From NCBI RefSeq assembly GCF_900129585.1, contig NZ_FQWF01000009.1, forward strand, positions 124,001 to 188,000: a DNA stretch of 64,000 nucleotides. Reading direction: 5' to 3'. The notes under the pieces are model-generated. The model was not told the DNA's origin and did not search any database. It saw only the letters and a program-made list of their open reading frames with translations. The translations under genes and the position numbers were made by a program. Shown piece by piece: positions 37,825 through 39,302 of the stretch. Source of the DNA: Flavobacterium micromati. Its GTDB lineage: Bacteria; Bacteroidota; Bacteroidia; Flavobacteriales; Flavobacteriaceae. The number at the start of each line of letters is the position of its first letter. The first letter of the stretch is position 1.

Positions 37825-38172
37825 CTAGTCTAAAAAAATACAGTCATTACCAGTAAAGTCTAAAATCTCTGAACTAGACCCATATTTAACAATCTCATCA
37901 ATCCCTTTTTGTAAACGCAAGGAAGTAGTGTATTTTCTACTTGTTGCAAAGTGATGACCTCCTAATATCAATTTAAAAAAGAATTTCCCACCAGAAGACT
38001 TAAACTTTAAAAAATCAGCAGAATCAATTTCGCGTTTAAACTTTTCAATATTTTCCTCACACTCAAACTTGAGTTCATAACTCAAACTTGTAAATACTAT
38101 TTTGCCTTTTCTCGAAGTAAATACAAATTTGTATTCGTCATTAAATCTTTTACTAATTACAAAAGCTCCCAT
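37825..38172 (-). CDS. DUF1508 (YegP-like) protein
   Basis: 115 residues, no signal peptide. It has two DUF1508-like beta repeats: MGAFVISKRFNDEYKFVFTS with a Ser-x-Gly-type turn, and GGKFFFKLILGGHHFATSRKY, each ending in a short helix with Gly-Ile. Compared with typical YegP proteins the motifs are weak (SSG and LRLQKGI), so the call is moderate. The function of the family is unknown. The gene is isolated with its own terminator; 38173-38355 has no gene. Confidence 0.75.
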   Translation of the reverse strand: MGAFVISKRFNDEYKFVFTSRKGKIVFTSLSYELKFECEENIEKFKREIDSADFLKFKSSGGKFFFKLILGGHHFATSRKYTTSLRLQKGIDEIVKYGSSSEILDFTGNDCIFLD

Positions 38173-38371
38173 GAATTTTAACTATTAAATTTTAGAAATT
38201 GCATTTTTGTTAATTATTTATTTAGCAACACAAAGTTTAAATTATTTAGTAAAAAACAATCTCAAGAAATTGTTTTAAAATAAAATTTTAATGTTCTTTT
38301 TTAAATTAATTAATCATGGTTCTTAAGATTTTAAAAACAAAAAAAACCTCTTCACTTGAAGCTTTTTCTTG

Positions 38372-38409
38372 TACTCAGAGCGGCTCCGAAGCTTCGGAGT
38401 TGAACCCGC
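38372..38409 (-). repeat. tRNA-Leu 3'-end remnant with palindrome, copy 1
   Basis: On the minus strand it reads GCGGGTTCAA, then the perfect palindrome CTCCGAAGCTTCGGAG, then CCGCTCTGAGTA. The real tRNA-Leu has GCGGGTTCAA, GTC, CCGCTCTGAGTA. So the T-arm and acceptor 3' side are preserved and three bases of the T arm are replaced by a 16-base palindrome. Confidence 0.85.
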
Positions 38410-38416
38410 TATTATA

Positions 38417-38698
38417 TCATAATTTACTAAGCACATCAAACAATATATTCGAATCAGCTACTACTTTCTCTAAAAAAATTCTAGATTTCATTCTTTTCAA
38501 AAAACGCTCTAAGAAATATGCTTTCTCACTGGTTTCACATTCAAAACTTAATCTTAAATCCCAAGGAATTCCCTTGGCAGTAAATGATCTGTCATATAAT
38601 CCAGAATTATGCTCACTCAGCCTTTTGACGACATCATCAGTAGTACCAACATAATACCTGTCTAATTTTTTAGAATAAAGTATATAAATGAAATACAT
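38417..38698 (-). CDS. GIY-YIG nuclease-family protein, copy 1
   Basis: 93 residues, a single UvrC/Slx1-like GIY-YIG domain. The two core strands are FIYILYS and YYVGTT (GIY and YIG positions), followed by Arg in DDVVKRLSEHN and a catalytic-type Glu in LERFLKRMKSR. There is no DNA-binding domain. The stop lies 8 bases before the tRNA-Leu remnant. The protein is identical to copy 2. Related small GIY-YIG genes are widespread next to RNA genes in Bacteroidetes; their substrate is unknown. Confidence 0.9.
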   Translation of the reverse strand: MYFIYILYSKKLDRYYVGTTDDVVKRLSEHNSGLYDRSFTAKGIPWDLRLSFECETSEKAYFLERFLKRMKSRIFLEKVVADSNILFDVLSKL

Positions 38699-38715
38699 TT
38701 AAAAATTATCTAATA

Positions 38716-38746
38716 AAAAAGCTTCAAACATAGTTTGAAGCTTTTT
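38716..38746 (-). terminator. Terminator hairpin, copy 1
   Basis: AAAAAGCTTCAAAC and GTTTGAAGCTTTTT, 14-bp perfect stem with a 3-base loop; duplicate of the hairpin behind tRNA-Leu. It would end the transcript of GIY-YIG copy 2. Confidence 0.8.
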
Positions 38747-38750
38747 CTTG

Positions 38751-38788
38751 TACTCAGAGCGGCTCCGAAGCTTCGGAGTTGAACCCGC
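38751..38788 (-). repeat. tRNA-Leu 3'-end remnant with palindrome, copy 2
   Basis: Identical to the remnant at 38372-38409, 379 bases away, including the CTCCGAAGCTTCGGAG palindrome in the T arm. Confidence 0.85.
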
Positions 38789-38795
38789 TATTATA

Positions 38796-39077
38796 TCATA
38801 ATTTACTAAGCACATCAAACAATATATTCGAATCAGCTACTACTTTCTCTAAAAAAATTCTAGATTTCATTCTTTTCAAAAAACGCTCTAAGAAATATGC
38901 TTTCTCACTGGTTTCACATTCAAAACTTAATCTTAAATCCCAAGGAATTCCCTTGGCAGTAAATGATCTGTCATATAATCCAGAATTATGCTCACTCAGC
39001 CTTTTGACGACATCATCAGTAGTACCAACATAATACCTGTCTAATTTTTTAGAATAAAGTATATAAATGAAATACAT
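38796..39077 (-). CDS. GIY-YIG nuclease-family protein, copy 2
   Basis: 93 residues and identical in protein sequence to the copy at 38417-38698; the flanking DNA is duplicated with it. It starts 53 bases after the 3' end of tRNA-Leu(UAA), with the tRNA terminator hairpin in between. Identity of both copies implies a very recent duplication, or gene conversion, or an assembly duplication. Either copy could be functional, since all visible GIY-YIG residues are kept. Confidence 0.9.
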   Translation of the reverse strand: MYFIYILYSKKLDRYYVGTTDDVVKRLSEHNSGLYDRSFTAKGIPWDLRLSFECETSEKAYFLERFLKRMKSRIFLEKVVADSNILFDVLSKL

Positions 39078-39094
39078 TTAAAAATTATCTAATA

Positions 39095-39125
39095 AAAAAG
39101 CTTCAAACATAGTTTGAAGCTTTTT
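39095..39125 (-). terminator. Terminator of the tRNA-Gly/tRNA-Leu transcript
   Basis: Perfect 14-bp hairpin AAAAAGCTTCAAAC/GTTTGAAGCTTTTT with loop of three, 5 bases after the tRNA-Leu 3' end on the minus strand. Confidence 0.85.
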
Positions 39126-39129
39126 CTTG

Positions 39130-39215
39130 TACTCAGAGCGGGACTTGAACCCGCACGAACATTGCTGTTCACTGGATTTTAAGTCCAGCGTGTCTACCAA
39201 TTTCACCATCCGAGC
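39130..39215 (-). tRNA. tRNA-Leu(UAA)
   Basis: 86 bases with a long variable arm, class II. The acceptor pairs GCTCGGA with TCTGAGT (two G-U pairs). The anticodon stem-loop is CTGGA-CTTAAAA-TCCAG, giving anticodon UAA for codon UUA. T arm GCGGG-TTCAAGT-CCCGC. CCA is not encoded. It follows tRNA-Gly by 14 bases, in one transcript. Confidence 0.95.
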
Positions 39216-39229
39216 ATTATGTGATGTGG

Positions 39230-39302
39230 AGCGAAAAACGGGGCTCGAACCCGCGACCTCGACCTTGGCAAGGTCGCGCTCTACCAACTGAGCTATTTTC
39301 GC
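39230..39302 (-). tRNA. tRNA-Gly(GCC)
   Basis: 73 bases. Acceptor stem GCGAAAA with TTTTCGC, discriminator U. Anticodon stem-loop CGACC-TTGCCAA-GGTCG gives anticodon GCC. D arm contains AGCTCAGTTGGTAGAGC and T loop GGGTTCGAGCCC. CCA is not encoded. Confidence 0.95.

Follow-up and report, generated by a model that had tools for sequence, protein, structure and literature searches.

The window (the whole stretch of 64,000 nucleotides that was analysed) contains, on its minus strand, a tRNA-Gly gene followed by an intact tRNA-Leu(UAA) gene, a terminator-like hairpin, a small GIY-YIG gene and a broken copy of tRNA-Leu that carries the palindrome CTCCGAAGCTTCGGAG; an identical second unit and a terminator-like stretch come next (Table 1). 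The two units (38356–38734 and 38735–39113) do not differ at any of their 379 bases, and the identity extends 28 bases further, into the intact tRNA-Leu. The sequence confirms the preliminary description of this DNA, in which two identical 379-base units, each with a GIY-YIG gene and a tRNA-Leu(UAA) remnant, had the intact tRNA-Leu at the end of the array. Its account of the remnants, in which GTC gives way to a perfect palindrome, is also correct: tRNA positions 62–71 and 75–87 are kept, and positions 72–74 are swapped for the 16-bp sequence named above. According to the ORF list, no integrase-sized ORF lies within the 379-bp unit. A small DUF1508 gene is found downstream of tRNA-Leu in the window and in several relatives. 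The window genome is a 3.69-Mb draft of 40 contigs, in which TCCGAAGCTTCGGA occurs at the two window sites only and its reversed control pattern at none. The exact window palindrome was tried as a marker and rejected: one longer form was confined to the window genome among the 61 searched in the genus, and the core was found in 9 of 296 genomes of the order. Because of this rarity (1/61 and 9/296), a general form of the palindrome was used for the surveys described below.

Table 1. Positions of the array components and neighbouring genes in the window
Feature	Position	Strand	Basis
tRNA-Gly(GCC), first of the tRNA pair	39227..39302	-	ARAGORN
Intact tRNA-Leu(UAA), anchor gene	39129..39215	-	ARAGORN
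Terminator-like hairpin after intact tRNA, type ii (GCTTCAAACTATGTTTGAAGC)	39095..39125	-	Inverted repeat I8; sequence
GIY-YIG gene copy 1, 93 aa	38796..39077	-	ORF; PF01541 match
Broken tRNA-Leu copy 1, tRNA positions 62–71 and 75–87 around palindrome	38750..38788	-	
Palindrome CTCCGAAGCTTCGGAG copy 1	38763..38778	.	
Terminator-like hairpin, internal unit	38716..38746	-	Inverted repeat I7
GIY-YIG gene copy 2, identical to copy 1	38417..38698	-	ORF; PF01541 match
Broken tRNA-Leu copy 2	38371..38409	-	Sequence
Palindrome CTCCGAAGCTTCGGAG copy 2	38384..38399	.	
Apparent hybrid terminator, element-type 5′ half and locus-type 3′ half	38340..38370	-	Hybrid reading inferred
DUF1508 gene, neighbour marking the same locus in relatives	37825..38172	-	ORF; domain match

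The 93-residue ORFs match the GIY-YIG family PF01541 with an E-value of 1.9e-13, and the protein matches GIY-YIG families only. In an alignment of 18 proteins, residues Y5, Y16, G18, R26, H30 and E64 are invariant; we take Y5, Y16, R26, H30 and E64 to be the equivalents of I-TevI residues Y6, Y17, R27, H31 and E75. The domain, together with the catalytic tyrosines, arginine and glutamate, places the protein by its sequence in the GIY-YIG superfamily. Its AF2 model is confident (mean pLDDT of 92.6). By profile, the solved structures closest to it are those of UPF0213 proteins and SLX1, and the best matches in a fold search were UPF0213, Slx1 and the catalytic domain of I-TevI, with weak E-values. 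The window protein is thus related to UPF0213 and SLX1 nucleases in both sequence and fold, and we know of no description of either as part of tRNA-linked repeats. As the SLX1 structure is titled as that of a structure-specific endonuclease, a hairpin or cruciform would fit as the substrate of the window protein.

A search of genome contigs returned 26 relatives, 20 of them situated downstream of tRNA genes (for Leu, Asn, Ala, Met or Asp) and 2 just upstream of one; no tRNA was detected for the other 4, all of which were matches close to the end of the stretch. A profile of 18 proteins was matched at an E-value of 1e-8 or better in 183 of 296 genomes of the phylum (tRNA linkage was checked for some). 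Among 134 arrays, which represent the best-scoring relatives and not a random draw, so that weaker relatives may differ, a same-strand tRNA was present within 350 nt in 118, and an opposite-strand tRNA alone in none. The 16 arrays without a tRNA at this distance comprise 9 at contig edges and 7 in the interior, and two of the latter have a tRNA at 353 and 428 nt. The window array is one case of a pattern that extends across Bacteroidota, and its components are an intact tRNA, a small UPF0213/SLX1-like GIY-YIG gene on the same strand and, on the far side of this gene, a broken copy of the same tRNA. The seven other PF01541 loci of the window genome have no tRNA within 1.5 kb, and L001, another GIY-YIG protein of this genome that the profile matches, has no tRNA nearby. 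The preliminary description had anchored the elements on tRNA 3′ ends. This is true of the 92 of 109 tRNA-adjacent genes that have the tRNA upstream, but the remaining 17 lie on the 5′ side, with the tRNA downstream. It had also considered rRNA genes as neighbours, and none was seen in the 13 loci in which such a link was looked for. Other RNA genes were rejected as anchors, as an Rfam search of 9 loci without a tRNA within 350 nt gave a single match, to a tRNA in L104.

Tandem arrays are also present in genomes assembled as one contig, with five copies in G610, seven (one of them truncated) in G220 and further tandem units in G519 and G559. The G220 array was initially a candidate coding repeat, which was rejected when its units proved to be GIY-YIG. 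Several gene copies are frameshifted. Two other GIY-YIG arrays, L091 with seven copies and L162 with four, have no intact tRNA in the stretch; the L091 units contain a palindrome with the same core as that of the window, located beside a possible tRNA 3′ end. At several loci (L022, L024, L026, L027 and others), the GIY-YIG frame reads into the D-arm of the tRNA, which gives C-terminal tails such as AQLVRVPHLRD. Carriage by phages or plasmids was rejected: no relative of the window protein was confirmed in the plasmids or phages searched, and among viral contigs a single peptide pattern identified 133 stretches, none of them a confirmed relative.

For the analysis of the broken copies, four apparent duplicates (L042, L043, L054 and L056) and one row without a full gene (L037) were dropped before counting, and 106 of the 109 tRNA-adjacent genes were left after duplicate removal. 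The broken copy sits on the side of the gene opposite the intact tRNA. When the tRNA is upstream, mostly its 3′ part is retained in the broken copy, and when it is downstream, mostly its 5′ part; the remnant may span the greater part of the tRNA, and 3′-side copies are mostly devoid of the 5′ acceptor strand. A broken copy with an interruption of 10–60 nt was identified for 84 of the 106 genes, and the other 22 gave none that could be scored. The interruption was palindromic (an inverted repeat, arm length ≥6) in 75 of the 84, with 2.3 expected after shuffling of the same letters, and 9 were below this cut-off. The disrupted spare copy should be useless as a tRNA, yet an intact one is found within 350 nt in 118 of 134 arrays. 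With these two counts, the association of GIY-YIG gene, tRNA remnant and palindrome that the preliminary description had proposed proves to be strong.

The palindromes of the broken copies mostly have the form TCCCG...CGGGA, and CTCCG, CCCCG and TCCG variants also occur. As many as 70 are distinct, and a single master palindrome was rejected on these grounds; pairs 1–6 are complementary largely through the arm cut-off, so only the diversity is informative. Among the 69 palindromic interruptions with the tRNA upstream, 37 affect mainly the anticodon arm and 29 the T arm (66 in all), and the remaining three comprise one in the D arm and two pure insertions. The anticodon arm is replaced exactly, over 17 nt, in 10 of the 69 (0.23 expected for random placement of removals of the same length), where the edges of the replaced segments come from exact-match chaining and may shift by a base or two. 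The commonest location of the palindrome accounts for 6/8 cases in tRNA-Asp (51–58 or equivalent), 3/4 in Leu (72–74), 2/2 in Lys (26–42), 3/7 in Ala (28–44), 4/12 in Gly (49–56), 2/6 in Val (29–45) and 6/17 in Asn (26–35). The locations that recur within a tRNA type span distant genomes, and the remainder are elsewhere. Judging from these alignments, a tRNA hairpin appears to be at times exchanged whole for another hairpin and otherwise cut into.

Broken copies also occur without the nuclease gene. In G303, tRNA-Leu is followed by four ∼96-bp broken-tRNA units with a palindrome (L048, 1380–2080), one of them imperfect, and tRNA-Val by one such unit (L041, 1354–1530), with no GIY-YIG gene in between at either locus. 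These units look like non-autonomous forms. At L130 (1157–2366), the broken copies resemble tRNA-Lys/tRNA-Val chimaeras and are flanked by two intact tRNA-Val genes.

A comparison with relatives indicates how the window array may have arisen. Some of them share the locus of tRNA-Gly, tRNA-Leu and DUF1508 and have no cassette (e.g. L215, compared with L042 and L043), so the cassette is present or absent at the same tRNA-Leu site. The terminators of the empty loci, among the relatives listed, are of two main kinds, CCTCTTC...GAAGAGG and GCTTCAAACTATGTTTGGAGC. The window has a terminator of the second kind behind its intact tRNA, and the one after the last broken copy appears to combine a 5′ half of the second kind with a 3′ half of the first. 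This apparent hybrid, in which the repeat identity of the units stops at 38355/38356, inside CTTCAA, is as expected for insertion from a donor and would represent the right-hand junction of an incoming cassette. When the 45 nt after the broken copy were compared with those after the intact tRNA, they differed in 18 of 67 loci (one of which, L120, scores low only through masking of a neighbouring tRNA), were alike in 46 (some of these pairs compare against the next unit of the same array) and were in between in 3. It is therefore likely that cassettes are both inserted from a donor and multiplied locally in tandem. In one relative (L235), the tRNA-Gly and tRNA-Leu genes are repeated, with no cassette in the part seen.

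The nuclease lineages tend to follow the isotype of the adjoining tRNA. On a quick tree of 104 proteins, which has many open forks because the protein is short, the isotype changes 31 times, compared with a mean of 74.4 for shuffled labels, and a value as low was obtained in 0 of 200 shufflings. Asn, Ser, Met, Val, Pro and Leu rows cluster, and the Ser-, Asn- and Leu-linked groups cross different host groups. A branch with a support of 98 sets the 13 Gly rows apart, all of which belong to one host family. No clustering is seen for the Ala-linked rows (7 changes in as many rows), and it is weak or absent for Asp, Arg and Phe. The earlier proposal of a mobile element that uses tRNA as its target gains from this tendency.

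Palindromes of the same class are dispersed through the genomes. The general form TCCCGN{4,8}CGGGA has 40 sites in the window genome (5 for the reversed control) and 219 in G366 (0 for the control), and the stricter TCCCGANNNNTCGGGA has 22 in the window genome and 63 in G183, with control counts of 1 and 0, respectively, and of at most 2 in every genome listed. For 15 of the 40 window-genome sites, stretches of ∼3 kb were fetched, and ARAGORN found no tRNA in them. The palindromes of the window genome mostly differ in the loop, so no master copy is apparent. Two of them lie in coding genes. In the first gene, which we take to be tex, an 18-bp palindrome stands in frame where relatives have ∼3 nt, and it is absent from 27/27 aligned relatives. 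In the second, a 16-bp palindrome stands where relatives have 4 nt and is absent from 16/16 aligned relatives (three relatives were left out for length, and six with partial matches were not used). The simpler reading is that both were inserted in the lineage of the window genome; at these orthologous sites the palindrome is optional, as is characteristic of ultra-short mobile palindromes. It follows that the palindrome, described previously as a footprint of the element, is not only that, as the same class is dispersed and occurs in ordinary genes as well.

Across the 296 genomes, the number of palindromes in excess of the control rises with the number of GIY-YIG genes (rho of 0.59), a correlation confounded with phylogeny, terminators and the palindromes of the broken tRNA copies. 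When the comparison is limited to the 147 genomes whose control count does not exceed 5, genomes with the gene (n = 106) have a median of 27 and those without it (n = 41) a median of 8. The strict form occurs in 132 of the 183 genomes with the gene (it is missing in the other 51), compared with 39 of the 113 without a detected gene. Family by family, the trend reaches significance in f31 and f37 but not in f1 (p of 0.10), and in f30 there is none (p of 0.82); several genomes have many sites despite no detected gene (27 in G459 and 19 in G484). As in RAYT/REP systems, dispersed palindromes follow an enzyme gene here, with f1, f30 and the gene-less genomes as exceptions.

The explanation that we favour, and to which we assign about an even chance, is that the cassette is a tRNA-anchored selfish element spread by nuclease-provoked recombination. 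It builds on the architecture seen across the phylum, the tandem arrays, the recurrent positions within tRNA types, the diversity of the palindromes and their optional presence in genes; the cleavage and the order of steps are our inference. The nuclease would cut at or near the tRNA arm that is replaced, or at the hairpin formed by the palindrome, and the broken end would be repaired by recombination with tRNA sequence. Such repair could copy the cassette into a tRNA locus or multiply it in tandem, with one intact tRNA retained. A crossover between the palindrome and the tRNA end would produce precisely this arrangement, with the intact tRNA and the broken one on opposite sides. The palindrome may either take the nuclease site out of the spare copy or be itself the site of cutting and joining, and it might be taken up at breaks elsewhere. 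Were the tRNA arm the cut site, the adjacent intact tRNA should be cut too, and no protection is visible. The alike flanks at 46 of 67 loci also count against this explanation, as local tandem duplication would give the same result, and so do the tRNA-adjacent genes without a scorable or palindromic interruption, the isotypes that fail to cluster, the mismatches between gene and dispersed palindromes and the absence of confirmed relatives in viral contigs, plasmids and phages. A bolder version, which we consider possible but doubtful, is that a structure-specific GIY-YIG nuclease swaps a tRNA arm for a 16–18-bp palindromic hairpin and that the same reaction scatters palindromes through the genome, which would make these cassettes a phylum-wide selfish class. 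Here, the nuclease would remove the arm of a tRNA gene copy at the base of the arm, and the palindromic hairpin would take its place; as an intact tRNA is kept, the host would survive, similar to a natural cleave-and-rescue element.

The dispersed palindromes could also be accommodated by a RAYT/REP-like arrangement, in which the GIY-YIG protein moves the palindrome as a hairpin and the tRNA copies are a nursery and not the target. The dispersal of the class in the window genome and in G183, the replacement of ∼3–4 nt in two conserved genes and the relation between palindrome counts and gene number would agree with it, and the exact arm-for-arm exchanges would suit an enzyme that cuts at the base of a hairpin. 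However, to our knowledge hydrolysis is known for GIY-YIG enzymes and strand joining is not, the differing loops reveal no master copy, the correlation is non-significant in two of four families, and the counts are inflated by the palindromes within the broken tRNAs themselves. We regard this arrangement as somewhat improbable.

Tandem duplication of the tRNA region followed by decay, in which spare copies collect a palindrome common in the genome and the nuclease gene is a passenger, is unlikely in our view. It would agree with the alike flanks, the gene-less units of G303 and the frameshifted gene copies, but it does not readily account for the strand and tRNA specificity, the tRNA-type nuclease lineages that cross host families, the palindromes that return to the same tRNA positions and at times replace an arm exactly, or the terminator that looks hybrid, features that favour the selfish cassette. 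A device that serves the host, with cassettes that raise tRNA dosage or supply tRNA-like decoys against tRNA-cleaving toxins or defences, appears very unlikely. Much of the tRNA is retained in the broken copies, and a few loci (L020, L028, L125, L127 and L130) have two or more intact tRNAs of the same type; in the available part of the source, SegB of phage T6 is described as raising tRNA-Tyr dosage against Septu (PMC13096335). However, in the other arrays that were inspected the repeated part is mainly the broken copy, the 3′-side copies mostly have no 5′ acceptor strand, and listed relatives have the tRNA-Leu locus without a cassette. That the array is an artefact of assembly is hardly credible: the genome is a 40-contig draft and the units are identical, but tandem units are present in G220, G610, G519 and G559, each of which is a single contig.

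Several known systems share individual features with the cassette. REPs, like the palindromes described here, are short palindromic sequences that are dispersed and associated with a gene for a small enzyme, but the RAYTs are tyrosine transposases, whereas the cassette encodes a GIY-YIG protein in which the Y1 HUH tyrosine transposase signature of RAYT/REP systems was not found. Integrative elements at tRNA 3′ ends keep the tRNA intact and displace a remnant, similar to the cassette. However, the cassette has no integrase-sized ORF in its unit, its remnant is interrupted by a palindrome, and both ends of tRNAs are used. REPs additionally carry GTAG and CGTC tags, according to the part of the source at hand (PMC3733652). 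The closest described case, as far as the accessible text of the source goes, is SegB, a free-standing GIY-YIG homing endonuclease of T-even phages that is encoded beside tRNA genes and in phage T6 brings about tandem repeats of tRNA-Tyr and segB; the nuclease gene has, at its 3′ end, microhomology to the tRNA (PMC13096335). The likeness lies in a GIY-YIG gene that adjoins tRNA genes, in tandem units of tRNA and nuclease and in lineages tied to their target site across hosts (31 vs 74.4 label changes, with Ala and Gly as exceptions). In contrast to the cassette, SegB belongs to a phage system, and the same text describes no broken tRNA arm, palindrome or lineages for many tRNAs. The closest palindromes are those of fungal mitochondria, where the portion of the review that was available lists PstI palindromes flanking Neurospora tRNA genes, GC clusters, MUSE1 and double-hairpin elements (PMC7218506). 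These are very short repeats, some of them GC-rich palindromes by tRNA genes, and are mostly considered mobile; they differ in being mitochondrial, and in that portion none is paired with a GIY-YIG gene and a broken tRNA copy.

The cassette looks like an undescribed kind of selfish DNA element; no description of it was found in the open-access library searched, a scope that leaves out most subscription journals and all bioRxiv preprints. If this reading is correct, it would be a new kind of mobile DNA in a bacterial phylum in which 183 of 296 genomes have matches to the gene family. The cassette connects a small nuclease family, remnants that resemble tRNAs and can mislead annotation, and palindromes of 16–18 bp that occur even in coding genes, and it offers a bacterial setting for genetic tests of how ultra-short palindromes move, a question familiar from fungal mitochondria. 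Were the hairpin swap also to be correct, the palindromes would be among the smallest mobile DNAs known, and ones that enter protein-coding genes too.

Palindromes are also found in two other tandem arrays of the window genome. At G000:C14:14123-14634 (L194–L196), tandem units of ∼247 bp contain TCCCGATAAAAATCGGGA, and ARAGORN found no tRNA there. At G000:C34:24286-24501, each unit of a four-unit, 66-bp tandem array contains TCCCGCTAAAAAGCGGGA.
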